A DNA stretch of 64,000 nt from Aureimonas sp. Leaf324 (GTDB lineage: Bacteria; Pseudomonadota; Alphaproteobacteria; Rhizobiales; Rhizobiaceae): the NCBI RefSeq assembly GCF_001423245.1, contig NZ_LMOH01000025.1, forward strand, positions 187,329 to 251,328, in the 5' to 3' direction. The position numbers and the translations under genes were made by a program. Below are positions 7,921 through 49,054 of this stretch, in pieces; the first letter of the stretch is position 1, and each line of letters begins with the position of its first letter. The notes under the pieces are model-generated. The model saw only the letters and a list, made by a program, of their open reading frames with translations, had not been told where the DNA came from and did not search any database.

Positions 7921-9294
7921 ATGGCGCGCGACACCACCGACCTGACCCCGATCCGCTCCGTCGACGAACTGGTCGCCCATATCGCCGAGGGCGAGAAGCC
8001 GCCGCAGGATTTCCGGATCGGCACCGAGCACGAAAAGTTCGGCTTCTACACGGCCGACCTGTCGCCCGTGCCCTACGAGGGCGATCGCGGCATCCGTCGC
8101 CTTCTGGAGGGCATGGCCGCGCTGTCGGGCTGGGAGCCGATCCTCGACGAGGGGCGGATCATCGGGCTGGCGGGCGCCAGCGGCCAGGGCGCGATCTCGC
8201 TGGAGCCCGGCGGGCAGTTCGAGCTGTCGGGCGCCCCGCTGGAGACGCTGCACGAGACGTGCATCGAGACCGGCCGCCATCTCGCCGATGTCAGAGAGAT
8301 CGCCGATCCCCTCGGCATCCGCTTCCTCGGGATCGGATCGAGCCCGCTCTGGCGGCTCGACGAGACGCCGGTCATGCCGAAATCGCGCTACGCCATCATG
8401 GCGCGCTACATGCCCAAGGTCGGCACGCGCGGCCTCGACATGATGTTCCGCACCACCACCATCCAGGTGAATCTCGACTTCGCCTCGGAAGCCGACATGC
8501 GCGCCAAGATGCAGGTCGGCATGCGCCTGCAGGCCGTCGCCTCGGCGCTGTTCGCCAACTCGCCCTTCACCGAGGGGCAGCCGAACGGGCTCCTGTCCTG
8601 GCGCTCCGACGTCTGGTCCGACGTCGACAACCAGCGCTCCGGCCTCCTGCCCTTCGTGTTCGAGGAGAGCTTCGGCTATCGCGACTATGTCGAGTGGGCG
8701 CTGGACGTTCCGATGTATTTCGTGATGCGCGAGGGGCGCTACCACGACGCGACCGACATCACCTTCCGCCAGTTCCTCGACGGCGCGCTCAAGGGCCGGG
8801 TCGCACAGCCCGAACCCAACATGGGCGACTGGGCGAACCACCTGTCGACGCTGTTCCCGGACGTGCGCCTCAAGCGCTTCATCGAGATGCGCGGCGCCGA
8901 CGGCGGGCCGTGGCGCGGCATCTGCGCCCTGCCCGCCTACTGGACCGGCCTTCTCTACGACGAGGGCGCGCTCGACGCCGCGATGGAACTGACGCGCGAC
9001 ATCGACTTCGACGAGGCCTCGCGCCTGCGGGCGGGCGTGCCCCGCCTCGGCCTCGCGACCCCGTTCCGGGACGGCACCGTCCTCGATCTCGCGCGCGAGA
9101 CGCTGGAGATCGCCCGGCAGGGTCTTGCTGCGCGCGCGCGCCTCAACGAGGACGGCCACGACGAGACGATCTTCCTCGCGCCGCTCGCCGACATCCTGGC
9201 GCGCGGCGAGACGGCGGCCGAGGAGCTTCTGCGCCTCCATCGCGGGCCCTGGGGCGGGCGGATCGATCCCCTGTTCCAGCATCTCGCCTACTGA
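7921..9294 (+). CDS. gshA: glutamate-cysteine ligase, plant/alphaproteobacterial class
   Basis: A 457-residue enzyme catalysing ATP-dependent gamma-glutamylcysteine formation, the first step of glutathione synthesis. It belongs to the plant-type class common in alphaproteobacteria: FRIGTEHEKFGFY near residue 30, and GQGAISLEPGGQFELSGAP near residue 90. The ATG at 7921 has GGAG eight bases upstream and begins MARDTTDLTP, a typical N-terminus; an open frame upstream to 7759 has no matching sequence and is rejected. It follows rsmE and precedes the DUF937 gene. Confidence 0.94.
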   Translation: MARDTTDLTPIRSVDELVAHIAEGEKPPQDFRIGTEHEKFGFYTADLSPVPYEGDRGIRRLLEGMAALSGWEPILDEGRIIGLAGASGQGAISLEPGGQFELSGAPLETLHETCIETGRHLADVREIADPLGIRFLGIGSSPLWRLDETPVMPKSRYAIMARYMPKVGTRGLDMMFRTTTIQVNLDFASEADMRAKMQVGMRLQAVASALFANSPFTEGQPNGLLSWRSDVWSDVDNQRSGLLPFVFEESFGYRDYVEWALDVPMYFVMREGRYHDATDITFRQFLDGALKGRVAQPEPNMGDWANHLSTLFPDVRLKRFIEMRGADGGPWRGICALPAYWTGLLYDEGALDAAMELTRDIDFDEASRLRAGVPRLGLATPFRDGTVLDLARETLEIARQGLAARARLNEDGHDETIFLAPLADILARGETAAEELLRLHRGPWGGRIDPLFQHLAY

Positions 9295-36187: not shown

Positions 36188-36568
36188 CTATTCGCCGCTC
36201 GTGACGGCGGCGCGCCCCACCGCCATCGCATCCTCGATCGCGGCCTGCAGCGACGAGGGCGAGGAGGGCTTCGAGCAGATCCGGGCCGAGGGATAGCGCT
36301 GGCGAAGCTGCTGGTCGTCGGCGTGGCCGGAATGGAAGATGATGGGAACCGCGGCGGCATGCAGCGCGTCTGCCACCGGAAACACGTCGCCGTCCTTCAG
36401 GCGGACGTCGAGGATCGCGCAGTCGGGGGTCTTAGCCGAGAGCCCGTCCCCGGCCTCACGCACGGTCGGATAGGGACCGTCCATCTCGTAGCCCATTCCG
36501 GTCAGCACATCCTCGATATCCAGCGCCACGAAGAACTCGTCTTCCACCACCATCACGACGCTAGACAC
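36188..36568 (-). CDS. single-domain response regulator
   Basis: A 126-residue receiver domain without output domain. Acid pocket Glu9-Asp10, phosphoacceptor Asp54 in CAILDVRLKDGD, Ser80 and Lys100 are all present. The chosen start is GTG at 36566-36568, preceded by GGAGG at good spacing and overlapping the kinase stop (GTGTCTAG); the internal ATG would cut into the first strand. It is the last gene of the LOV-kinase-regulator operon, so it most likely takes the phosphoryl group from the HWE kinase and works by protein contact or as a phosphate sink. Confidence 0.87.
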   Translation of the reverse strand: MSSVVMVVEDEFFVALDIEDVLTGMGYEMDGPYPTVREAGDGLSAKTPDCAILDVRLKDGDVFPVADALHAAAVPIIFHSGHADDQQLRQRYPSARICSKPSSPSSLQAAIEDAMAVGRAAVTSGE

Positions 36569-39500
36569 GAGCAAGAACCTCCGCGGGCAAACGCATCTCG
36601 ATCTGGAAACGCCCCTCGCCCGTCGAACGGCGGATCTGCGTGTCCAATTGACGAGAAGACGTTTGAACCAGAAGGGTTCCAAATCCCGGCTCGCCATCAT
36701 CGGCCTTGGTTCGGTCGGATTGTTCCAGCCAGGAGAAGTCCAGCCCGTCGTCCTGCAAGGTCCACGACACGAGAAGCCGCCCGCTATCTGCTCCGAGCGC
36801 CCCGTATTTGTAGGAATTGGTCGCCCATTCGTGGAGAAGGAGGGCGAGCGGCGAAAGGTAGCGCCCGTCGATCGTGGCGCTCGGGCCTTCGAGTTCGATA
36901 TCGGCCTGCCCGCGATAGGCCGCCAGCGTCGTCTCGAGAAGTTCGCCGAGATCGATCGCGTACTGCTCGCCCGAGGGGGCGGCCAGCGAATGGGCCCGGC
37001 CGAGCGCCGCGATCCGCTCGCGCATCCCGCGCGAGAAGGCCCGCACGTCGGAATGGGTGCGCGAACCTGCCGTGATCATCCCGCCGATGATGGCGAAGAG
37101 GTTCTTCACCCGGTGGTTCATCTCGCGCAGCATGATCTCGCGCGTGTTGGTCGCCTCGCGCTCGGTGGTCACGTCGATCGAGACGCCGACGAGGCGCCGG
37201 GGCGCAGAATCGGCGACGAGACGTCCGAACCCCTTGAGGTAGCGCGTCTCGCCGTCCTGCGCGGCCACGCGAAAACTCGCCTCGAAGTCCGCCTCGCCCG
37301 AGGCCGCGCGCCCGAGTTCCTCCTCGATGCGCTCGCGGTCCTCCGGCTCGATCGTCGCCAGGAGGTTCTCGATGCGATGCGTCTCGGCATCGTCCGCCCC
37401 GAAGAGGTCGCGCTCGGTGGGGTCGAGGATCACCTGGCCGCTGTCGGGCAGATATTCCCAGATGCCGATGCCGCCGGCCTTCACCGCCAGATCCAGGCGC
37501 TCGCGCTCGGCGGTCAGTTCGCGCTCCAGCGACAGGGCGTCGGTGATGTCGGTGAAGACCAGCGTCACGCCGTCGACGCTGTCGGTCTGCGTGCGGTAGG
37601 GCATGATGCGCAAGGACAGCGTCCGGTCGGCCTTGCGCAGCGTGACGCGCCTTTGCATCGGCGCATTCCCCTCGAGCACGGCCTCGGCGTCGCCGAGATA
37701 GGCGTCGTCGTCGAGGCGGCTCGTCATGTCGGCGAGCGGGCGACCGCGGTCGGAGGGCTGGAACGGAAAGAGCTTGAGCGCGGCGGCCGTGAACGAGCGC
37801 AGGCACAGGTTGCGATCGAGGACGACCACGGCGAGCTCGGTCGATTCGAAGAAGTTGCGAAGGTCGGCGTTGGCGACGGTGATCTGGTCGACCTTGCCCT
37901 TCAGCTCGTCGTTGACGGTGGACAGCTCCTCGTTCGTCGACTGAAGCTCCTCGTTCATCGACATCATTTCTTCATTGGAGCTTTTGAGCTCCTCGTTCGC
38001 CGTCTCCAGCTCCTCCACGGTCGAACGCAGGCGATGGCGCGTCGAGCGCAGCTCGTGCTCCAGCGTCTCCAGGTGATCGTCGCCGTCGCTCATCGCCACG
38101 AGGTCGGGGTCCGAGGCCGCGTGGAAAGGCGCCGTCTCGCGAAACACGAAGAGGAACGTGCCGTCCGGCATCGGATCGCACACGACCTGCACCTCCTGGG
38201 TGCCGTATTCGGACTTCACCTCGACCGCGTTCACGACGAGCCGCTTGCCGTTGTCGCGGACCTGACGAAGGAGCGGGCCGACGACGCTGCGAAGGCCCGG
38301 CTTGGCGAGCGAGGTCGCGCTGGAGCCGCCCGCCCGCGAGACGGGGAAGTCGAAGAAGCGGCTGAGCGGCCCGTGCGCGGCGGCGATGTTGCCGTCCTGA
38401 TCCAGCACCAGCGTCGCCGGGGCGTAGCGGTCGACGATCCGGCGCAGGAGCGCCGTCTCGTCGCTGTCCTGACCGCCGAGCCGTCGCCCGCCGGCGTCGG
38501 CGGAGCGCACCGGGCGGCGCATGCCGCTGCCCGGCAGGTCGATCGGATATTGCGGCGCGCCGGGCGAGCGCTCGAAGAGGCGCGCCTGATGGTCGATCGC
38601 CGGAAACAGGTATTCGAATCGGCTGACGCTCTCGGACGGACCGAGGAAGAGGTATCCGCCCGGCCGCACGGCGTAGTGCATCAGCGGGATCACCGACTGC
38701 TGCAGGCGATCGTCGAAGTAGATGAGGAGGTTCCGGCACGACAGAAGGTCGATGCGCGAGAACGGCGGATCCTTGACGAGGCTGTGCGGCGAGAAGCGGA
38801 TAAGGTCGCGGATCGCCGGGACGATCGCGAAGCTTTCCGCATGGGGCACGACGTAGCGCTCGCGCCAGTCGGCGGGAATGTCGGCGAGCGCGGAGGCGGG
38901 ATAGATCCCGTCGCGGGCGATGCGCAGCATGCGCTCGTCGATGTCGGTGGCGAAGATCTGGACGCCGAGCGGCTGGCCGGTCTCGCGCGCGACCTCCGCA
39001 AAGATCATCGCGATCGAATAGGCCTCCTCACCGCTCGAGCAGCCGGGCACCCAGACGCGCAGGTCCTCCTCGCCCGCGTGCTCGCGCATCAGGAGCTCGA
39101 TCGCCTTCTCGCGCAGGACCTTGAAATGTTCGGCGTCGCGGAAGAAGCGCGTGACGTTGATCAGGAGATCGCGAAACAGCGCCTCGCATTCGGCGCCGTC
39201 GGCGCGAAGGCGCGCGACGTAGCTGCGGCCCGTGTCGAGGCCGAGGACATGCATGCGGCGCTCCACCCGACGCACCAGGGTCGAGCGCTTGTAGCCGGAA
39301 AAGTCGTGCCCCACCGCGCTGCGCAGGACGCGCGTCAGGTCGCCCACGAGATCGGCGCCGAAGCCGGCCTCGGTTTCCGTCGTCTCGCTCTCGCGCCGGC
39401 GGAAGAACGAGGAGAGGCAGGCAAGGATCTCGCCCGGCGATTTGATGAAGTCGACGAGGCCCGTGCCGACCGCCGAGACCGGCATGCCGTCGTATTTCGC

Positions 39501-40031
39501 GGTCGAGGGATCCTGCACGACGCAGAGGCCGCCGTGCTCCTTGACGGCGCGCAGGCCCGTCGTGCCGTCCCCCCCGGTCCCCGACAGGATCACGCAGGCC
39601 GCGCGGGTCTGCTGGTCGCCGGCCAGCGAGACGAAGAAATCGTCGATCGGACGCCGCAGTCCCCGTGGCTGGGCGAACTCGGTCAGCTCCAGCACCCCGT
39701 CGCTGACGATGAGCCCGTGGCCGGGCGGGATGATGTAGACGGTTTCCGCCTGCAGACGCTCGCCGCCCTCGCTCTGCACGACGGTCAGCGGCGTGTGGCG
39801 GTCGAGAAGCTGGGCCAGCATGCTCTCATGATAGGGGTCGAGGTGCTGCACCACGACGAAGGCCATGCCGGTCGGCACCTTGGCCGCGCCCAGCATCTCG
39901 CGCAGCGCTTCGAGACCACCCGCCGACGCGCCCACCCCGATGATCGGCAGAAAGGGAATACCCTCCTGCCCCTCGTTGTCGGTCGTTATCCCGGACGATT
40001 GGCGATCCATGTCCTGCGACGCGTCATCCAT
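36561..40031 (-). CDS. CheB-CheR-PAS-HWE hybrid signalling kinase
   Basis: A 1156-residue fusion. CheB methylesterase domain at about 28-210 with the triad Ser36, His63 and Asp155 in place; CheR methyltransferase domain at about 225-490 (FATDIDERMLRIARDGIYP); a long coiled coil at about 660-725 rich in EEL/NEEL repeats; two PAS domains at about 725-960; an HWE kinase core with phosphoacceptor His973 (MNHRVKNLFAII), N-box HEWATNSYKYGAL near 1067, and WLE near 1129. Known CheB-CheR-PAS-kinase fusions lack clear chemotaxis links. It overlaps the LOV gene and the response regulator by 8 bases each, so the three should be made together. Confidence 0.93.
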   Translation of the reverse strand: MDDASQDMDRQSSGITTDNEGQEGIPFLPIIGVGASAGGLEALREMLGAAKVPTGMAFVVVQHLDPYHESMLAQLLDRHTPLTVVQSEGGERLQAETVYIIPPGHGLIVSDGVLELTEFAQPRGLRRPIDDFFVSLAGDQQTRAACVILSGTGGDGTTGLRAVKEHGGLCVVQDPSTAKYDGMPVSAVGTGLVDFIKSPGEILACLSSFFRRRESETTETEAGFGADLVGDLTRVLRSAVGHDFSGYKRSTLVRRVERRMHVLGLDTGRSYVARLRADGAECEALFRDLLINVTRFFRDAEHFKVLREKAIELLMREHAGEEDLRVWVPGCSSGEEAYSIAMIFAEVARETGQPLGVQIFATDIDERMLRIARDGIYPASALADIPADWRERYVVPHAESFAIVPAIRDLIRFSPHSLVKDPPFSRIDLLSCRNLLIYFDDRLQQSVIPLMHYAVRPGGYLFLGPSESVSRFEYLFPAIDHQARLFERSPGAPQYPIDLPGSGMRRPVRSADAGGRRLGGQDSDETALLRRIVDRYAPATLVLDQDGNIAAAHGPLSRFFDFPVSRAGGSSATSLAKPGLRSVVGPLLRQVRDNGKRLVVNAVEVKSEYGTQEVQVVCDPMPDGTFLFVFRETAPFHAASDPDLVAMSDGDDHLETLEHELRSTRHRLRSTVEELETANEELKSSNEEMMSMNEELQSTNEELSTVNDELKGKVDQITVANADLRNFFESTELAVVVLDRNLCLRSFTAAALKLFPFQPSDRGRPLADMTSRLDDDAYLGDAEAVLEGNAPMQRRVTLRKADRTLSLRIMPYRTQTDSVDGVTLVFTDITDALSLERELTAERERLDLAVKAGGIGIWEYLPDSGQVILDPTERDLFGADDAETHRIENLLATIEPEDRERIEEELGRAASGEADFEASFRVAAQDGETRYLKGFGRLVADSAPRRLVGVSIDVTTEREATNTREIMLREMNHRVKNLFAIIGGMITAGSRTHSDVRAFSRGMRERIAALGRAHSLAAPSGEQYAIDLGELLETTLAAYRGQADIELEGPSATIDGRYLSPLALLLHEWATNSYKYGALGADSGRLLVSWTLQDDGLDFSWLEQSDRTKADDGEPGFGTLLVQTSSRQLDTQIRRSTGEGRFQIEMRLPAEVLARV

Positions 40032-40572
40032 CGAGTTCGGCGAGCCTCAGCTTGGCCTGGGCGACCGTGGCGGCCGTGTTGGCGATCGTCATCAAGGTGC
40101 CTTCGATGACGATTCCCGTGTCGGCAAGCTTCGGCTTCAGTTCGAGAAGCGTACGCGCGAGCTCGCGGTCGTAGGCGGCCAGAAGCTCCGGCTGCGAGCG
40201 GCTGACGTCGAACTGCGAGGCGAAAATGAAGTCGCAGCGGCCGGACTGATTGCGCAGCTTCGACATGAAAAGAAGATTGACGAAGGGATGGCCGTCCTTG
40301 TGGAAGTTCACGATCGGCGTGCGGACGGTGTCCTGCGTGTCGGAAGCGAGGAACATGCGGATGCGCTCGCGCGCCTCGCTGTTGTCGGCGTCCCGCTGGA
40401 GCATGCGGCAATTGCGCCCGACGACATCGGCCGCCGTATAGCCGGTCAGTTCCTCGAAGGCGTCGTTCACGCGCAGGAGCGGATTGTCTTCGCCGCAGGC
40501 CGCCAGCGCGATGGCCACGCTGGCCCGCTCGAAATAGGTTTCGAGCTGCGGCGGAATGGAGTGCGACTGCAA
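40024..40572 (-). CDS. stand-alone LOV-domain blue-light photoreceptor
   Basis: A 182-residue protein. A LOV-type PAS domain fills about 10-125 and keeps the photochemical motif GRNCRMLQ (52-59) with adduct-forming Cys55, plus flavin contacts Asn54, Gln59, Asn89 (NFHKDG), Asn99 and Gln120. A helical C-terminal extension (about 126-182) probably mediates dimerisation or contact with the kinase. Flavin (FMN) binding and blue-light adduct formation are expected for such a site. It is the first gene of the operon, overlapping the kinase start (GGATGA) by 8 bases. Confidence 0.92.
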   Translation of the reverse strand: MQSHSIPPQLETYFERASVAIALAACGEDNPLLRVNDAFEELTGYTAADVVGRNCRMLQRDADNSEARERIRMFLASDTQDTVRTPIVNFHKDGHPFVNLLFMSKLRNQSGRCDFIFASQFDVSRSQPELLAAYDRELARTLLELKPKLADTGIVIEGTLMTIANTAATVAQAKLRLAELDG

Positions 40573-41325: not shown

Positions 41326-42369
41326 TCAGCGCAAGGGCTGGTCGGCACTCGCCAGGCCTCTGCGCCGGACCAGCGCATCGTTCAACGTCGATTTCAAACG
41401 CTGGCGAAGCGGGATGTCGTAGAAGCGGGTGATGATCGGCGTGACGCAGCAGAAGGCCGCGACCAGCCCGACCATGCCGATCCAGGGTGCGAGGCCGGCC
41501 TTGCCGGCAGCCAGACTGCCGATCGACAGAAGCGAGTAATGGAGCGCGTAGACGGGATAGGAGATCTCGCCGAGCCACCTGGCGCCGATGAAGGACCGGC
41601 TGTGGGCGCCGAGGATCACGAAGAGCGGCGTCAGGACGACCACGAAGACGAGGTCGTAGAGCGGGTGCTTGATCGGTGCGACGAGTGCCGCGAAGAGGAG
41701 GGCCGCCAGGAGATAGGGGTTGATCCGCCACTGCGGCAGGCGATCCAGGACGTCGTAGAGAAGCAGTCCCATCGAGAACGAGAAGACGACCCGCACGAGG
41801 CCGACCTGGAACGTGTCGATCGTTCCGCCCGCCCCGAACAGGCCGCCGTAAGCGATCGGCACAAGCATCGGGCCGGAGACGAGCAGGATGAGCATGAGCG
41901 CGCCTCTCGTCAGATGCCTCGCCCATTTCGCGTAGGCGAAGTTGGCGAGAAGCTCGAACATCAGCGACCAAGCGGGTACGTTCAGGAACATGTAGGCGCC
42001 GACGATGGGCGTCGGCAGAAGGAGGAGGTTCAGCGTGCCGCCGGATACGATCTCCTCGAGCGACGGGGCGCCCGGATCGTGCAGGACGAAGAGCGCCACG
42101 GCCCGCAGAAGCGCCAGGAGAAACCCGAGGAGCAGCACCGGATAAAGCCGCGCCACCCGCAGGATCGCGAATTGCGCGAAGGACATCCCGTCGACCAGCC
42201 GCTGGCGATAGGCGTGCGCGATCACGAAGCCGCTCAGCGCGAAGAAGAAGTCGACCGCGAGATAGCCGACCGGGGCCCTGAGGTAGGGAACGGTCGCGAT
42301 ATGATAAAGAACGACGGCGAGCGCGGCGATGCCGCGCATACCATCGAGAGCGACGTAGTGGCGGGTCAT
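41326..42369 (-). CDS. acyltransferase 3 family membrane protein
   Basis: A 347-residue polytopic protein with about ten hydrophobic segments. It starts MTRHYVALDGMRGIAALAVVLYH, the hallmark N-terminus of acyltransferase 3/OafA-like proteins, with the family-typical arginine at 13 and histidine at 23, and contains FFFALSGFVIAHAY. Such proteins O-acetylate or otherwise acylate exported polysaccharides. The start overlaps the upstream polymerase/ligase stop by ATGA, placing it in the same operon and suggesting it decorates the polymer made by this cluster. Confidence 0.9.
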   Translation of the reverse strand: MTRHYVALDGMRGIAALAVVLYHIATVPYLRAPVGYLAVDFFFALSGFVIAHAYRQRLVDGMSFAQFAILRVARLYPVLLLGFLLALLRAVALFVLHDPGAPSLEEIVSGGTLNLLLLPTPIVGAYMFLNVPAWSLMFELLANFAYAKWARHLTRGALMLILLVSGPMLVPIAYGGLFGAGGTIDTFQVGLVRVVFSFSMGLLLYDVLDRLPQWRINPYLLAALLFAALVAPIKHPLYDLVFVVVLTPLFVILGAHSRSFIGARWLGEISYPVYALHYSLLSIGSLAAGKAGLAPWIGMVGLVAAFCCVTPIITRFYDIPLRQRLKSTLNDALVRRRGLASADQPLR

Positions 42370-43589
42370 CGCGGCGCGGCTCCGGCGGCAACGATCCCCT
42401 CGGTCGCCCCGAAGCGCCGTCGGGGCTCCGTGTCCGCGCGGTTGCCGGCCGGGGCCGGCCCCGCCCTTCGACCCGCCTCGGCCGGAGCGCAGGCCGCGAA
42501 GATGCCGACGATCACGAGAAGGAAATGCGTCGGCGTGGCCAGCGCATTGTCGGTGATCGAGATGGCAAGAAACCCGATCAGCGCGAAGATCGGCGCGTTG
42601 TCGCCGCGTCCCCACTTCTGCTTCGCGTACCAGACCGTCGCCACAAGAAGGATGTAGAACACCCAGACCCCGACATGGCCAAGTTCCACGAGAAGCCGCA
42701 GATAGTCGTTGTGGGCAGCCATGGACTGGAACAGGATGTAAACCTCACGCGGGGTCGACCAGTACTGGTGACCGAAGCCGATCCCGAACTCGGGATACAT
42801 CGACGACAGTTCCTCCAGCCATGGCCACATGATCTCGCGCCCGCTGAGGCCGCTGCCCGTGGCCCGCGCGGCGTAGCGCATGTAGGCGAGCGGTCCGATG
42901 ACGCAGGCGGCCGCAACGCCGACGGCCAGTCCTGTGATCTTCTGGCTGATCGTCCGACGCCTGGAGAACAGGAAGGTCAGCGCGCAGACGCCGAGCGCGA
43001 CCGCGAAGGCGACGCGGGCGCTGGTCAGGATCATGATCCCGGCGTTCATCAGGAGGAGGACGTAATATTTCTGCCGGCCGAGTTCTGTGAGGAGTAGCGA
43101 GGCCAGCATGCCAGACATCGCAAGCCCGCCGAGGAACGCCGCGTTCAGCGAACCGCCGAAGCGCGCCTGCCCCGTATTGAACTCGACCGAAAACGCCGAC
43201 CGCAACCCGACGACCTGATAGGCGAACCCGATGACCGCGCAGGCCACGGCGAACCAGGCGGCGGAGATCAGGATCGTGTCGCGATCGGTGGCCGTCGGTC
43301 GGGCCGACAGGAGCAGATAGATCAGAATGTATTGGTTCAGAGCGTTGAGGAGATACGACCACTGGAAGTCGGGGTAGTCCGTCATCGCCCCGAGAAAAAA
43401 GATCATGACGGTGATGAACACGAGGTTCGCGAGCGCGAAAAGGTTCAACTCCCGCCCGACGAGGAACAGCCCGCCAGCCAGGAGGAACAGCGACTTCACC
43501 AGCGCGTTCGCCGCCTCGATCTTGAAGAGGTCACCGATGTTCAGGACGAAGGCCGCGTAGGCGGCCAGATACATCAGTCGAAATTGCAT
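42366..43589 (-). CDS. O-antigen ligase/polymerase (Wzy/WaaL-like) membrane protein
   Basis: A 407-residue protein with about ten to eleven hydrophobic segments and a large periplasmic loop around LSGREIMWPWLEELSSMYPEFGIGFGHQYWSTPREVYILFQSMAAHNDYLRLLVELGHVG, where GIGFG and AHNDYLRLLVELG match the Wzy_C/O-antigen-ligase pattern (positions about 265-325). The chosen ATG at 43587-43589 starts MQFRLMYLAAYAAF; an upstream GTG would add 19 residues. It likely polymerises or attaches repeat units. A second protein of this superfamily is encoded at 56456-58000. Confidence 0.85.
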   Translation of the reverse strand: MQFRLMYLAAYAAFVLNIGDLFKIEAANALVKSLFLLAGGLFLVGRELNLFALANLVFITVMIFFLGAMTDYPDFQWSYLLNALNQYILIYLLLSARPTATDRDTILISAAWFAVACAVIGFAYQVVGLRSAFSVEFNTGQARFGGSLNAAFLGGLAMSGMLASLLLTELGRQKYYVLLLMNAGIMILTSARVAFAVALGVCALTFLFSRRRTISQKITGLAVGVAAACVIGPLAYMRYAARATGSGLSGREIMWPWLEELSSMYPEFGIGFGHQYWSTPREVYILFQSMAAHNDYLRLLVELGHVGVWVFYILLVATVWYAKQKWGRGDNAPIFALIGFLAISITDNALATPTHFLLVIVGIFAACAPAEAGRRAGPAPAGNRADTEPRRRFGATEGIVAAGAAPR

Positions 43590-43741
43590 CGCTCGCAGGC
43601 CCTGATCGAAGTCGGTCGGACACTGCCCGATCGGTGCGCGCGTCACAAGGTCGGGTCGGGTCGACCACCCGAACCCGACCTGCGAAAACGGCCGCCGATG
43701 ATGACTCGCCAGCGGCCGCCGGAATGATCGATATCTCGCGC

Positions 43742-44770
43742 TCAGCCGACGAGGATATGAGCGTTGTCGAGGAAATCGAGGTTCTTGCCAACATAGGCGA
43801 TGTCCTGCGCCGCACCGCCGCCGGTGCCGTCCGCGTCGTAGGACAGGTAGCCGGTCGCCTTGTCGTAGATGACCTGGCCATGGTCGGCGTTCGCCGCGGT
43901 GCCCACGACGAAATCCGTCCCGGCGAGATGGCCGTCGACGGCCGTCAGGTTGGTGAAGACCGACTTGTTCAGCTTGATGAAGTCGTTGCCGTCGAAATCG
44001 AAGATCTGGTCGCGGTTCGACGCCCCGAAATGGCTGAAGGCGAAGGTGTCGGAACCGCCCTTGCCCCAGAGCTGGTCGTTGCCCGCGCCGCCGTCGATGA
44101 CGTTGTCGCCCTTCGAGCCGGTGATCAGGTTGTTGAGGTCGTTGCCCGTCCCGTCGATATTGCCGGTCTTGAGGCGCAGGTTCTCGACGCCCGCGCTGCG
44201 GTTGAGGTCGACCGAGGCGCTGGTCCAGATCGTGTCGATGCCGGCGTCGGGACCGGCGACATACTCGTCGCTGCTGTCGAACGTGTAGGCGTCGTTGCCG
44301 CTCGACCCCTGATAGGTGTCGACACCGCCGCGCCCGTCGAGGAAGTCGTTGCCGCTGCTGCCGACGAACGTGTCCACGTTGTCGCTGCCGTAGATCACGA
44401 AGCGCTCGACATGGCTGGCGACGATCGTGCCACCCGCGCCCACGGCGAGGTTGGCGCCGGTGTCGGTCGCGGTCATCGTGATGGTCGCGGTGTTGGAGGC
44501 GAGCTCCAAGCTGTCGGTGCCCGCGCCACCATTGTAGATCGTGGTGCCGACGACCGCGTCGTTCGCCTTGACGATCAGGCGGTCGTTGCCGTCGCCGCCC
44601 GAGAAGGCGGACGAGGCGAAGGTTCCGCCGGTCGGGACGGTGCGGAAAATGTCGTTGCCGGCCAGTCCGGCCACGAGCGCGTTCGTGTAGCCGGAGGCAG
44701 ACAGGGTATCGTCGCCCGTGGTCAGGGGCAGGTAGTCGTCGACGTTGCCGACAGTCACGATGTTCGCCAT
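43742..44770 (-). CDS. RTX (hemolysin-type calcium-binding repeat) protein
   Basis: A 342-residue protein without signal peptide, rich in Gly, Asp and Asn. RTX nonapeptide-like repeats occur at GGDGNDRLI, GSSGNDFLDGRGGVDTY, GSKGDNVIDGGAGNDQLWGKGGSDTF, about residues 58-66, 137-154 and 225-250. The C-terminal region FDFDGNDFIKL...LSYDADGTGG is typical of RTX secretion ends. Such proteins leave the cell through type I secretion and fold on binding Ca2+. No catalytic domain seen; a structural or adhesive matrix protein is plausible. AGAGGGA precedes the start. Confidence 0.88.
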   Translation of the reverse strand: MANIVTVGNVDDYLPLTTGDDTLSASGYTNALVAGLAGNDIFRTVPTGGTFASSAFSGGDGNDRLIVKANDAVVGTTIYNGGAGTDSLELASNTATITMTATDTGANLAVGAGGTIVASHVERFVIYGSDNVDTFVGSSGNDFLDGRGGVDTYQGSSGNDAYTFDSSDEYVAGPDAGIDTIWTSASVDLNRSAGVENLRLKTGNIDGTGNDLNNLITGSKGDNVIDGGAGNDQLWGKGGSDTFAFSHFGASNRDQIFDFDGNDFIKLNKSVFTNLTAVDGHLAGTDFVVGTAANADHGQVIYDKATGYLSYDADGTGGGAAQDIAYVGKNLDFLDNAHILVG

Positions 44771-44982
44771 GGATCCCTCTCGAGGCTCGAGCCGACGGGG
44801 TTTTCAGCCGAGAGGGTTTATGCCCTTGCTCCGATCTATCGTCAATTCTTCGTTATCTAAAGGAATGCGAAGAGTGCCGGCTTGGTGAATCCGCGCGGAG
44901 CGATCGGCAAGCCTCGATCCAGCGGTCCGGCCAGCGCTCGGGGACATCGCCGGCCGATAAGCGGTGCGACGCTCCTCCCCCC

Positions 44983-45507
44983 TTACGACGAGGGCGCTCC
45001 CGCCTGGGCCCGGGCTTCCCGCACGCGGGCCTCCTCGGCCTCCCACAGCGCGTTACCGGTGGCATTCGCGCTCGGGAAACGACCGTAGGGCCCCACTTCG
45101 ATGTCGCTGCGGATGATGCGGGCGGGATTGCCCGCGACGATCGAGCGGGGCGGGACGTCCTTCGTCACGACGCTGCCCGAACCGACGATGCTGCCGTCGC
45201 CGATCTGGATGCCCGGCATGATGATGCTGCGCGCTCCGATGAAGCAGTGCCGCCCGATCCGGGTGTGGAGGTAGAGACCGCGCGTCATGTCGTGAGTGAG
45301 GATCGAGACGTCGAAGGCGACGTAGCTCTTCTCGCCGACATGGACACCGCGCGGGAACGTCTTGTCGAAGCGGGCGCTGAGCGAGAAGTTGGCGGTGGGA
45401 TGAATGTCCATCTGCCAGACCCGGCAGTAGATCCACCATTTAGTCTTCACGATGAGCTTGCGCACGCCGAGGAAGCGGTTGAGGCTGGGCAGCGTTCGTT
45501 TGGACAT
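44983..45507 (-). CDS. left-handed beta-helix acyltransferase (WcaF-like)
   Basis: A 174-residue hexapeptide-repeat transferase. The N-terminus resembles WcaF/colanic acid acetyltransferases, and hexapeptide turns run through THDMTRGLYLHTRIGRHCFIGARSI with a conserved histidine near the active site, ending IIMPGIQIGDGSIVGSGSVV and AGNPARIIR (about residues 96-145). It would transfer acetyl from acetyl-CoA to a sugar during polymer assembly. It lies in the same-strand gene block as the two RTX proteins, with 212 bases to the next gene. Confidence 0.9.
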   Translation of the reverse strand: MSKRTLPSLNRFLGVRKLIVKTKWWIYCRVWQMDIHPTANFSLSARFDKTFPRGVHVGEKSYVAFDVSILTHDMTRGLYLHTRIGRHCFIGARSIIMPGIQIGDGSIVGSGSVVTKDVPPRSIVAGNPARIIRSDIEVGPYGRFPSANATGNALWEAEEARVREARAQAGAPSS

Positions 45508-45769
45508 TGTCGGACCGTTCTCCAGCGTCGCGCTCGGATCGAAATTCGTCGCCGCGTTCCACAGGGGAAAGCGGGTACCCGGATCGAGCGTCCAGGCACG
45601 CGCCCTTGTGCACCGCGGTGCCGACGACGTTTAGCCAGATGCAGACGGCTTGAACAGGGCGTGCTTGCCGATGGGCGGGGCCGGACGCTTGCGGGCAGGC
45701 GCCCCGTCCGACGGAAAGGCGCCCGCCCGCGGGAAGCTCGGGCCGGACCTCCCGACCTCCGCCTCCTTC

Positions 45770-48700
45770 TCAGGCGAAGAGGACGTTGGTTTCGGTGAGC
45801 GCCGCGAGCTTCGTGTTGAGAAGCGTCACGCTCGAATGATCGTCGATCTGGATCATCACGTCGGCTCCGACCTGGTGGGCGTCCGCCAGAAGCTCGTTCA
45901 GGCTGTGCAAGCCGGTCGCCTCGAAGCGCAGGACATCGCCGCCGGCCGACAAGGCGCCGGCCTTGAAGTCCCGCACCACGTCGTCGCCGCCGTTCTGCCG
46001 GAAGACGAAGGTGTCCGAACCGCCGTTGCCGATCATCACCTCGTGCGCCGAGGTGCCGACGATCCGATCGTTGCCGCTGGTGCCGAGAACATGACGCTCC
46101 TCGAGCGCGGTAACGTTACCCGCCGCATCCTTTGCCGAAAAATCGAACGTGTGGATCTTGGAGGGGTCGACGGCGAGCTTGGCCGTCCAGGCGCTCGACG
46201 TCGCGTTCAACGTCGTGGTCGCCACGCCATCCCGCACGACGCTGATCTGGCCCGGCGTCTCGCTGATCGTGCCCCGCAACTGGACCTCGCCGCCAGCGGT
46301 CGCCGTGATCCGCGAGACCGCGAGATCCGGGCCCGTCATGTCCACGACGACGTCCTTCGACTTGGAGAGGACGCCGGTGTTTCCGGCGGCGTCGGTGGCG
46401 GTCGCGGTCAGTCGGTGCGCGCCCTCATCGAGACCGGAGGCGAGATAGGACCACTTGCCGTCGGCCCCGGTGACCGCCCCGCCGATCCGCACACCGTTGT
46501 CGAAGACGTCGACCTTCGACAGGGCTTCGGCCGTGCCCTTCAGGAGAGCGGCATCCTCGCGGACATAGAGCTTCGTGGCGTCGCCCTCGAAGACGGGCCG
46601 CGCCGGCCCCTTGGTGTCGACGGTCATGGCGACGCCCGCCGATGTCGCGCTCTTGTTGCCGGCGACATCCGTCTCGATCACGGAGAAGACGTGCTGGCCG
46701 TCGGTGAGCGTCTTGGTCGAGAAAGTCCACTGGCCCGAGGCGTCGGCCACCACCGTGCCGAGGACACGCGAGCCGTCGAGGATCTTGACCGACGAGCCGG
46801 CGTCCGCCCGGCCCGACAGGTCGGCCGTCTGGGCATTGGTCACGCCGTCGCCGGCGACGCCGCTGTCGGCATAGCGGAGCGTCGGCTGGTCGACCACGGG
46901 GGCCTTGGTGTCGATGGCGAGCTTGTCGCCGAGATTGCCGCCCGCGGTGGTCGCATCGATTGCGACCCCCGTCTTGACGGACCGGATCGCCGCATCGCCG
47001 AGAGAGATCTTCGAGACGGACAGGTCCGAGACGTCCTGACCGTCCGCCACCTTGTAGGTGAAGACGAGCGTGTCGCGTCCGTTTCCGTAAGCGTAGTTGG
47101 CGACCGCGCCGTTGCTGAGCGTGACGGCGAGGCCACCGCCCTTGACGTTGACCAGCTCGTCGAAGCGCACGGCGACCGTCACCGTTTCGCCCGCCTTGGC
47201 CGACCCGTCCGAATTGAGAAAGCTGAAGCCGAGCGGCGTTGGACCGGCCGTCGGGGCGGCAGGGGTCGTTGGAGCTGTGACGGGAGGAGCGGCCACCCCT
47301 GCCGAGCCGCCGGGCGCAGCCGCCGCAGGGCCGGCCGAAAGGTCCGGCGCAGGAGCCTTGCCGGCGCCGAGCGCCGCCGTCGTGTCCGACATGCGCCACT
47401 GGACGTTGGCAGCGGAGAAATCGCCGGGTTTCACACCCTGCAGCGTTGCGAGCGTCGTCCAGCCGCCGTGGCCATCCGAAGCCTGCACCAGCGTACCGGC
47501 GCCGGCGGCCGAGACGCGCAGGTGACCGTCCGCCAGAGGATCGCCGCTGCCCCAGCCGAGGCGTACGGCCAGAACCGAGACGTCGAGGATGTCGCCCTTC
47601 GCTCCGGCCTGGAAGTCGGTGATCGTGTCCCCGCCTTCCGACAGTTCGTGATAGGCGAAGCGGTCGCGGCCCTCCCCGCCCGTCAGCTGGTCCACTCCGG
47701 CGCCGCCCCAGACATAGTCGTTGCCCACGCCGCCGTTGATGACGTCGCTGCCCTTGCCGCCGAGCAGCATGTCGGCCTTGGCCGTGCCCGTCAGGACGTC
47801 GTCGACCGTGTTGACCGTGTCGCGGATGGCGGAGTTCACCATCGACACGACGTCGGACTTGAAATTGTATCCCTTGCCGATGCTCTCGAAGACGCTGTCG
47901 GTGACCGTGTTGTTCTGCGTCTTCCCGGAGATCATGAAGGCGTATTGCCCGATCTCGCGCGCCACGACGTTGGACACGTTTGCGTCCCGCCCGTCGCCCT
48001 TGCCGTATTCGAAGAACTGCAGGGCGTAGCTGTTGTTGACGCCGCCGCTGTCCTTCAGGCCGTTCCCGATTCCGCGGAAATCGGCGATCATGCGGGAATC
48101 GAAGGCGAGCACGTTCTCGTAGAGACCGCCGCGGGACTCGGAGTGGAAATCGAAGGCGGCGCGGTCGGCGTCGTAGGCGACGGCATCCTTGGCATGAAGC
48201 TGGATGTCGGCGCCGTAGCTCGTGGCGCTCGTTCCGTTGGCGGCGGTGCCGACGCCATGCACGAGGACGGCATGGCTCGAGTGCTCGACGAACAGGCCCT
48301 TGATGTCGGTCGAGAAGGAGGCCGAGGACTGCACGCCGGCATAGACGTTGTGCGCGGCCACGTCGCGAACGTCGGCATTGACGCCGTTGACGATCTTCAG
48401 CCCAACGCTGCCGTTGCGCAGATCGACGTCGGTCACCGTCGGCTCGACGAGGTTGCGCAGATGGATGAGGTCGGCCGCCCCCTTGGCGGTGGCGAAATCG
48501 CCGCGTCCGCCGCCGATCGCACCGTTCTTGATCGTGAATTCGGCCGTCGAGAAGGTCGAGGCCCGCACGTTGGTATGATAGAGGCCCTGGTCGACCAGCG
48601 CCCCCTTCAGGATGACCGTGTTGCCCTGGATCGCCACGACCTCGGCCGCCTGGCCGAGCCGCGTCGGCTGGCCGCCGTCGCTCGCGTCGATGTGGTCGCC

Positions 48701-49054
48701 GAGCAGCGCGTCGTCGGAGACGACCTTGACCCAGCTGCCCACCTTCAGGTCGACCGGGATCTTGTCGTAGGTGATCGTCGCGTTGCCGTTCTGCGAGCCG
48801 AGCGCCACCGACGACAGGGCGGAGGCCTTGGCGTCGACGTAGAGGATGCTGTTAGCGCCTCCGCCGACCAGGGTGCTGCCGTTCAGATCGATCGTGATGT
48901 TCTGCTTCTCGAGGAACATGACGATCTGCTTCGTGACCGCGATGGTCTCGTCCTTCGGCAGCACGAGGGTGCCGCCCGTGGCGGTCAGAGCCTTCAGTCC
49001 CGTCTCGATGTCGGCCTGCGTCGCCTTGGGCCGAAGCTGGATGATCTGCGACAT
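45770..49054 (-). CDS. secreted RTX beta-helix protein, alginate C5-epimerase-like with Ig-like repeats
   Basis: A 1094-residue protein without signal peptide. Residues about 25-415 form a right-handed parallel beta-helix; AFDFHSESRGGLYENVLAFD (300-319) aligns with the FDPHE...NVAY active-site segment of alginate epimerases, keeping Asp302 and His304 but with Phe-for-Pro and Ser-for-Glu/Asp. RTX repeats follow at about 430-465 (GGKGSDVINGGVGNDYVWGG), then an Ala/Pro linker (about 545-600), several bacterial Ig-like domains (about 605-960) and a C-terminal RTX-like secretion region (about 975-1094). It likely acts on an extracellular polysaccharide after type I export. Lyase activity is an alternative to epimerase. 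Confidence 0.8.
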   Translation of the reverse strand: MSQIIQLRPKATQADIETGLKALTATGGTLVLPKDETIAVTKQIVMFLEKQNITIDLNGSTLVGGGANSILYVDAKASALSSVALGSQNGNATITYDKIPVDLKVGSWVKVVSDDALLGDHIDASDGGQPTRLGQAAEVVAIQGNTVILKGALVDQGLYHTNVRASTFSTAEFTIKNGAIGGGRGDFATAKGAADLIHLRNLVEPTVTDVDLRNGSVGLKIVNGVNADVRDVAAHNVYAGVQSSASFSTDIKGLFVEHSSHAVLVHGVGTAANGTSATSYGADIQLHAKDAVAYDADRAAFDFHSESRGGLYENVLAFDSRMIADFRGIGNGLKDSGGVNNSYALQFFEYGKGDGRDANVSNVVAREIGQYAFMISGKTQNNTVTDSVFESIGKGYNFKSDVVSMVNSAIRDTVNTVDDVLTGTAKADMLLGGKGSDVINGGVGNDYVWGGAGVDQLTGGEGRDRFAYHELSEGGDTITDFQAGAKGDILDVSVLAVRLGWGSGDPLADGHLRVSAAGAGTLVQASDGHGGWTTLATLQGVKPGDFSAANVQWRMSDTTAALGAGKAPAPDLSAGPAAAAPGGSAGVAAPPVTAPTTPAAPTAGPTPLGFSFLNSDGSAKAGETVTVAVRFDELVNVKGGGLAVTLSNGAVANYAYGNGRDTLVFTYKVADGQDVSDLSVSKISLGDAAIRSVKTGVAIDATTAGGNLGDKLAIDTKAPVVDQPTLRYADSGVAGDGVTNAQTADLSGRADAGSSVKILDGSRVLGTVVADASGQWTFSTKTLTDGQHVFSVIETDVAGNKSATSAGVAMTVDTKGPARPVFEGDATKLYVREDAALLKGTAEALSKVDVFDNGVRIGGAVTGADGKWSYLASGLDEGAHRLTATATDAAGNTGVLSKSKDVVVDMTGPDLAVSRITATAGGEVQLRGTISETPGQISVVRDGVATTTLNATSSAWTAKLAVDPSKIHTFDFSAKDAAGNVTALEERHVLGTSGNDRIVGTSAHEVMIGNGGSDTFVFRQNGGDDVVRDFKAGALSAGGDVLRFEATGLHSLNELLADAHQVGADVMIQIDDHSSVTLLNTKLAALTETNVLFA

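Follow-up and report, generated by a model that had tools for sequence, protein, structure and literature searches.

We find that a three-gene cluster in a 64,000-nucleotide window of the Aureimonas sp. Leaf324 genome (contig NZ_LMOH01000025.1, hereafter C25, positions 187,329 to 251,328; all window coordinates are counted from the first nucleotide of this stretch) is likely to specify a conserved light-input two-component module, in which photoreceptor and kinase are separate proteins and whose output would adapt by self-methylation. The cluster encodes a stand-alone LOV protein, a histidine kinase of the HWE type that also carries CheB and CheR domains, and a single-domain receiver (Table 1).

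Linkage of a stand-alone LOV gene to a CheB-CheR-PAS-HWE kinase gene

The three genes lie on the minus strand and, as a preliminary description of this DNA had stated, each overlaps the next by 8 bases (LOV and kinase genes at 40024-40031, kinase and receiver genes at 36561-36568), an arrangement that suggests co-transcription. In LOV domains, one cysteine forms an adduct with the flavin in blue light, and a set of further residues contacts the flavin. The preliminary description had recognized the adduct cysteine (Cys55) and flavin-contact residues in the LOV protein, and we found that N54, C55, R56, Q59, N89, N99 and Q120 are identical in all 44 LOV proteins of an alignment (A4). With these residues in a PAS fold, the protein has the hallmarks of a blue-light photoreceptor, and it probably binds flavin and undergoes LOV photochemistry. 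One genome (G020) carries two closely similar LOV genes, L034 and L036; the extra copy, L036, which lies at a contig end, has Ser in place of N89.

Conserved linkage of the genes, which had been set as a check on the preliminary description, was evident in two scans. With the LOV protein as query, we obtained, among 199 genomes of the family, some LOV match in 62 and a strong match (E 3.6e-32 or better) in 6, the window's genome included. In all six, a CheB-CheR-PAS-PAS-HWE kinase gene and a receiver gene are adjacent, with the LOV gene divergent in two. Similarly, a scan of named genomes yielded at least 570 relatives, of which the best 80 were taken, giving 79 loci; at 40 of 40 loci in one set of these (L037-L076) a stand-alone LOV gene lies directly upstream of the kinase gene on the same strand; the kinase runs off the contig at L060, and its frame is broken at L056 and L061. 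The other 39 loci comprise two with the divergent form (L096 and L114), one with a different short LOV (L084), and 36 with LOV in frames of at least 351 residues. Genera with the pair include Aureimonas, Methylobacterium, Methylorubrum, Sphingomonas, Novosphingobium, Rhodobacter, Paracoccus, Palleronia, Neokomagataea and Erythrobacter; the closest named relative is Aureimonas sp. ME7, with LOV and kinase proteins 80% and 83% identical to those of the window. At L056 and L061 (the latter on a plasmid record), the kinase frame is in two pieces, by mutation or sequencing error. Several carriers of the pair look like leaf or plant isolates (Leaf9, Leaf22, phyllosphaerae), an impression rather than a count, which fits a light-exposed habitat.

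We also approached the linkage from the kinase side, scoring two kinase candidates in each of 397 genomes of the order (E 1e-150 or better). Six kinase matches covered the HWE core to its end, four with a LOV gene adjacent (G000, G020, G411, G510) and two (G521, G303) with none in the flanks examined. We looked for a substituted sensor beside the LOV-less kinases L216 and L217, and found a receiver gene and no sensor recognizable by eye among open reading frames (ORFs) that were not domain-scanned; a sensor swap was not adopted.

The pair, found again and again among alphaproteobacteria, suggests a partner for light receptors that had no known partner, and it points to contact between the LOV protein and the kinase; we consider it quite likely that the LOV protein acts on the kinase in trans. 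The earlier interpretation, in which a CheB-CheR-HWE kinase receives its light signal from a separate protein, thus gains a deeply conserved linkage, and as a whole is supported in part.

Relationship to RsLOV and to fused LOV kinases

Judged by its stand-alone form, its tree group and its predicted helical C-terminal extension, the window LOV protein appears to be a short LOV of the RsLOV type. Its predicted model has a predicted local distance difference test score (pLDDT) of 83.9, falling to 57-75 in the C-terminal extension, and its nine best PDB matches are all RsLOV chains (4hj3, 4hj6, 4hnb and others), with template modeling (TM) scores of 0.66-0.68 and root-mean-square deviations of 5-8 Å over the whole length. 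We then placed the family in a midpoint-rooted tree of 160 LOV rows with bootstrap not settled, in which the related L037 (80% identical) stands in for the window LOV, L157 and L208 represent one gene, and L277-L282 are not included. All 62 kinase-linked LOVs fall among 68 rows on one side of a single branch (support 100/93), together with near-identical relatives of RsLOV, and nine other short LOV rows fall on the opposite side. Of the remaining 6 of the 68 rows, four hold dynamin-linked LOVs (three LOVs, one of them entered twice), and the other two are the contig-end copy L036 and a LOV beside a decayed kinase.

The neighborhood of RsLOV was read in its relatives; none of the genomes compared was recognized as R. 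sphaeroides 2.4.1 itself. We searched 248 genomes of a family taken as Rhodobacteraceae (G832) with an RsLOV fragment, which comes from an engineered variant chain so that identities to the wild type differ a little, and 41 genomes matched. Wide flanks of 19 short-frame LOV loci in this family contained the kinase in 13 cases and none in 6. In the genus nearest to RsLOV (G1013, taken as Cereibacter), the LOV gene is present in five of five species (77-96% identical to the fragment), and in four of the five it is divergent from an intact CheB-CheR-PAS-HWE kinase gene, followed by a receiver gene. RsLOV thus resembles the window LOV in its structure (TM about 0.67), its tree group, its stand-alone form with a helical C-terminal extension, and the kind of kinase that its relatives adjoin; it differs in being only about 26-30% identical and in that, among its relatives, the LOV gene is divergent from the kinase gene, whereas the window LOV gene is the first of overlapping genes. 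According to the portions of PMC9758184 available, no binding partner had been identified as of 2022 for RsLOV, DsLOV, PpSB1-LOV or PpSB2-LOV, and the available portions of PMC4335406 and PMC4844311 describe effects of RsLOV on photosynthesis, photo-oxidative stress and chemotaxis genes.

We considered that the cluster might be an ordinary LOV histidine kinase split into two genes, following the logic of LovK or the Brucella LOV-HK with CheB and CheR idle. The LOV protein matches blue-light kinase models of NCBIfam below their cut-offs, and the LOV and the kinase core both match the fused models NF052306 and NF010077, likewise below cut-off; moreover, the host genome encodes a separate fused LOV-HWE kinase (a 372-residue open frame at about 290169-290783 of contig C1), and therefore the cell has both fused and split forms. 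However, the window proteins do not belong to the LovK or Brucella type, in which LOV and HWE kinase share one polypeptide, because here they are separate ORFs and score 96.3 and 116.7 against the cut-off of 450 for NF052306. Moreover, the tree separates the kinase-linked LOVs from 83 of 84 rows labeled as fused, the 84th (L237) being a stand-alone LOV mislabeled only because its open frame runs on, and the CheB and CheR catalytic residues are invariant in 40 of 40 kinases, which would be unexpected of idle domains. We therefore regard a simple gene split as very unlikely.

A conserved helix in the kinase and its possible methylation

CheB enzymes act through a Ser-His-Asp triad, and CheR enzymes likewise depend on a set of conserved residues. 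We aligned 40 of the 63 kinases (A5), leaving out the frame-broken L056 and L061, which were read as separate pieces. The preliminary description had called the CheB and CheR active sites intact and had noted an HWE core, and the alignment agrees: identical in 40 of 40 kinases are S36, H63 and D155 of CheB, C331, G334, E336, D363 and N434 of CheR, and H973, N1072, W1101, E1103, G1116 and G1118 of the HWE core. By these residues, the protein has the His, Asn box, WxE and G boxes of an HWE kinase, a CheB triad and the residues of a CheR S-adenosylmethionine (SAM) fold, consistent with its Pfam matches (HWE_HK PF07536, 59.3 bits against a cut-off of 22.8; CheB PF01339, 175 bits; CheR PF01739, 179.5 bits).

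Two further features are absent from the preliminary description: a highly conserved helix at residues 654-731 and, at about residues 522-632, what may be a third PAS-like domain. Lying between CheR and the annotated PAS domains, the helix is the most conserved segment of the kinase. Its core (residues 673-711) is 79% invariant in A5, compared to 25% for CheB, 20% for CheR, 12% for HWE and 2% for each annotated PAS domain, and the segment NEEL[KR]SSNEEMMSMNEELQS was found in 63 of 63 kinases examined. In the kinase model, residues 654-731 form one unbroken helix (pLDDT mostly 58-68) between the PAS-like region and the first annotated PAS domain. The full-length model has a mean pLDDT of 78.5 and a predicted TM score of 0.40, and therefore its domain folds are usable and its domain arrangement is not. 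The PAS-like region has no Pfam match; perhaps, from the order of strands and helices in the model, it is a third PAS domain of the kinase.

In methyl-accepting chemotaxis proteins (MCPs), the consensus around methylated residues has E/Q pairs every seven residues, with small residues at +3. The kinase helix has E-E pairs at this spacing with S or T at +3 (E-E-x-x-S/T heptads), and so matches the MCP-type pattern. We counted a strict three-heptad pattern, [EQD][EQ]xx[AST]xx over three pairs, and found it in 119 of 139 open frames that contain CheR, compared to 6 of 2615 other frames (stop-to-stop frames of at least 250 residues on both strands, not proven genes; the count left out loci L001-L030 and L268 onward, and L238-L267 include repeated entries of the same gene). 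The 20 CheR frames without it are mostly pieces, or belong to short loci that end before the helix. One of the six frames without CheR is a chemoreceptor with HAMP and MCPsignal (L209; PF00015, 186 bits), and the other five represent three genes with the same type of coil, in G249 (at a contig start), G073 (a broken frame) and G264. In G264 (L246, L260), the E-E coil and CheR lie in two separate open frames; either the gene is split or its frame is broken. A DNA pattern for the helix motif matched 18 of 150 genomes of the order, and a reversed control matched none; 16 of 19 distinct motif genes with an examined locus have CheR upstream in the same frame. A two-heptad form also occurs in 7 of 7 host chemoreceptors examined, at two places each (EQQAA[SN]LEETVA and QQNAAMVE[EQ]). 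Thus, the likeness to chemoreceptor methylation sites is real but not exclusive, with the three-heptad form in one MCP elsewhere.

A precedent for such a helix as a substrate exists in Bacillus cereus, in which the methyltransferase RsbM, which we take to be a CheR-type enzyme, is paired with a kinase that bears a signaling helix, RsbK. In the portions of PMC4574943 available, RsbM methylates the signaling helix of RsbK, a modification required to keep sigma B in check; that system differs in having its methyltransferase on a separate polypeptide, no known cognate methylesterase, and stress rather than light as its known input. By analogy, and given the helix pattern and the fused enzymes, we propose, tentatively and at a little under an even chance, that the window kinase methylates itself. 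With CheR and CheB both fused to the kinase and the active-site residues of each intact, such methylation would be reversible.

Alternatively, the LOV protein might control the kinase in trans while CheB and CheR act on other targets, such as chemoreceptors or another protein, so that light is coupled to chemotaxis adaptation. With intact CheB and CheR residues, 16 MCPsignal matches in the host genome and the reported effect of RsLOV on chemotaxis gene expression (in the part of PMC4335406 available), this idea has some appeal, but contig C25 holds no MCPsignal or CheW match, and the kinase itself has no match to CheA, CheW or MCP domains in Pfam and NCBIfam scans. The cluster thus lacks the CheW and MCP genes that would mark a chemotaxis pathway. 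Moreover, the E-E helix is part of the same polypeptide as the two enzymes and is its best conserved segment. We consider action on other targets unlikely.

The receiver

The third gene had been described as a lone receiver, in agreement with the Pfam match to Response_reg. All 52 aligned receivers retain D10 and D54, and these residues and the gene order suggest phosphotransfer from the kinase. Next to the 62 linked kinases (the window excluded), a receiver gene is on the same strand in 47 cases and convergent in 4, with none within 700 bp in 11, one of which sits at a contig end; for the 40 named loci the corresponding numbers are 26, 4 and 10. Eight Methylobacterium-type loci (L038-L044, L214) have no adjacent receiver. 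The best matches of the window receiver are PhyR-type receiver models and PDB 2lpm, which we take to be Sma0114. Receivers of the FATGUY type (PhyR, SdrG, LovR) have an F-A-T-G motif after strand 4. The window receiver reads FHSGH in place of that motif, and we did not assign it to this type; of the 52 receivers, 32 have H and 9 have A at position 79.

A model for the module and the points against it

We propose that blue light would produce the Cys55-flavin adduct in the stand-alone LOV protein, and that the altered LOV protein may bind or release the CheB-CheR-PAS-PAS-HWE kinase encoded by the adjacent gene, setting its autophosphorylation. The phosphoryl group would pass to the neighboring single-domain receiver, and perhaps also to PhyR-type regulators. 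Glutamates in the E-E heptad helix of the kinase itself would gain methyl groups through CheR and lose them through CheB, and this self-methylation would let kinase output adapt to steady light.

Several observations weigh against this model. First, linkage alone is not contact; LOV and kinase distances do correlate (Pearson 0.93), but shared ancestry alone could explain this, and the kinase's own PAS domains could carry the real input. Second, not all short LOVs have the kinase. In the G832 family, three LOVs of the RsLOV group (L208, L220, L223) lack it and lie beside dynamin-like GTPase genes, and three other loci (L277, L280, L282) have neither such a kinase nor a dynamin-like GTPase nearby; L209-L213, from a sample of the class and on the opposite side of the branch, also have no such kinase nearby, and in the fifth species of the G1013 genus the kinase is a frame-broken remnant. 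Third, the receiver is missing beside 10 of the 62 linked kinases, all of them Methylobacterium-type or Paracoccus. Fourth, the strict three-heptad form is absent from all 7 host chemoreceptors examined, and the two-heptad form is less specific, occurring in 40 of the 2615 other open frames. Finally, the helix is also found in a kinase without an adjacent LOV (G303, L217) and in many other CheB-CheR proteins, and therefore its conservation need not concern light.

Some of these points would fit a different arrangement, in which LOV and kinase are inherited and expressed together and work in parallel, the LOV protein acting on the receiver or another protein while the PAS domains of the kinase sense something else. 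Consistent with it are three genomes in which LOVs of this group adjoin dynamin-like GTPase genes, a LOV and a receiver that persist beside a decayed kinase, and the related kinases without LOV (L216, L217). Against it, the 40 named loci (from the best 80 of at least 570) were chosen by LOV alone, and the kinase is present at 40 of 40 and the receiver at 30 of 40; in addition, the linkage is seen in both co-directional and divergent layouts. We therefore think parallel action rather unlikely, and control of the kinase by the LOV protein remains our preferred reading.

Two of these contexts are of interest in themselves. Dynamin-like GTPase genes and a conserved segment of some 117 residues (72-88% identical) immediately precede the LOV genes L208, L220 and L223, and this neighborhood is a second recurring context for short LOVs. 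At L237 (G1209, about 8070-9000), an open LOV gene and a receiver gene flank a frame-broken kinase remnant, a natural loss of the kinase with LOV kept.

Gene features and genome context

Table 1. Features of the LOV-kinase-receiver cluster (window coordinates; residue numbers refer to each protein)
Feature	Coordinates	Strand	Details	Basis
LOV gene	40572..40024	minus	TTG start, 182 aa	ORF translation
LOV core	40201-40515	minus	about aa 20-124	Pfam PAS
Adduct Cys55 codon	40408-40410	minus	motif GRNCRMLQ	
Helical C-terminal extension of LOV protein			aa 128-181	predicted model
CheB-CheR-(PAS-like)-coil-PAS-PAS-HWE histidine kinase gene	40031..36561	minus	1156 aa	ORF translation, Pfam, alignment A5
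CheB methylesterase domain	39420..39941	minus	aa 31-204; S36, H63, D155	Pfam
CheR_N and CheR (SAM-binding)	38592..39332 (aa 234-480)	minus	CheR_N aa 234-278, CheR aa 292-480	Pfam
Possible PAS-like domain	38136..38468	minus	aa 522-632	strand/helix order in predicted model (inference)
Signaling helix, proposed methyl-accepting segment	37839..38072	minus	aa 654-731; E-E/D-E heptads aa 673-709	
PAS_10	37542..37862	minus	aa 724-830	Pfam
PAS_3	37182..37406	minus	aa 876-950	Pfam
HWE histidine kinase core	36612..37124	minus	aa 970-1140; His973, Asn1072, W1101-x-E1103, G1116/G1118	Pfam HWE_HK aa 970-1050
Single-domain receiver gene	36568..36188	minus	GTG start, 126 aa; D10, D54, S80, K100	Pfam Response_reg

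The host genome is 4.4 Mb in size and has 16 HWE_HK matches and one PhyR above cut-off. Since the receiver matches PhyR-type receiver models and the genome encodes this one PhyR, a link of the module to the stress response is possible. We searched upstream of LOV for an EcfG-type promoter pattern and found it at 0 of 41 loci; with a chance expectation of just 0.22 loci for the strict and 0.58 for the loose pattern, this result means no more than the absence of such a signal. An Rfam scan of the window at gathering scores gave no match.

Beyond the LOV gene, the window holds an envelope or exopolysaccharide region (41326-49054) encoding acyltransferase, O-antigen-ligase-type (Wzy_C), RTX-repeat and Big-domain proteins. 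The preliminary description had linked the cluster to surface attachment through these adjacent genes, an idea that found no support, in that the acyltransferase, Wzy_C and first RTX proteins were matched at 0 of 48 related loci (flanks of at most 8-10 kb per side).

Discussion

The module shares its parts with several known systems. Like LovK-LovR and the Brucella LOV-HK, it combines a LOV input, an HWE kinase and a single-domain receiver, but the LOV domain is fused to the kinase in those systems and separate here, and the kinase here adds CheB, CheR and extra PAS domains. A short LOV that acts in trans on a protein encoded next to it has been described, in the portions of PMC9758184 available, in the pair PmSB-LOV and PmlR2 of Pseudomonas mendocina, although the partner there is a MerR-type transcription regulator and not a kinase.

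In a search of open-access literature, as far as the sources were available, we found no description of LOV with CheB/CheR or of self-methylating CheB-CheR kinases, while the neighboring kinase may have been mentioned earlier, in the original publications on RsLOV (Conrad 2013; Hendrischk 2009; Metz 2012). By term search of the available text, papers on HWE and LOV kinases (PMC10359499, PMC12148442) lack the terms CheB and CheR, and a paper on the signaling helix (PMC1592074) lacks CheR, CheB and methylation. Thus, the parts (short LOV, HWE kinase, CheB, CheR and receiver) are known, and within the literature covered we did not find their combination, or the proposed self-adaptation, described.

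Through its conserved linkage, the kinase becomes a specific candidate partner of the RsLOV branch that can be put to the test. As a speculative extension, about which we have some doubt, the whole class of CheB-CheR-PAS kinases might self-adapt by methylation of the helix without chemoreceptors or CheA, with one branch taking LOV input and RsLOV being the photoreceptor of such a kinase. Adaptation is best known from chemoreceptor arrays. If CheR and CheB do act on the kinase's own helix, adaptation would be a self-contained part of a kinase family that reaches well beyond light sensing, and the module would offer a ready-made light-controlled adapting kinase for engineering.

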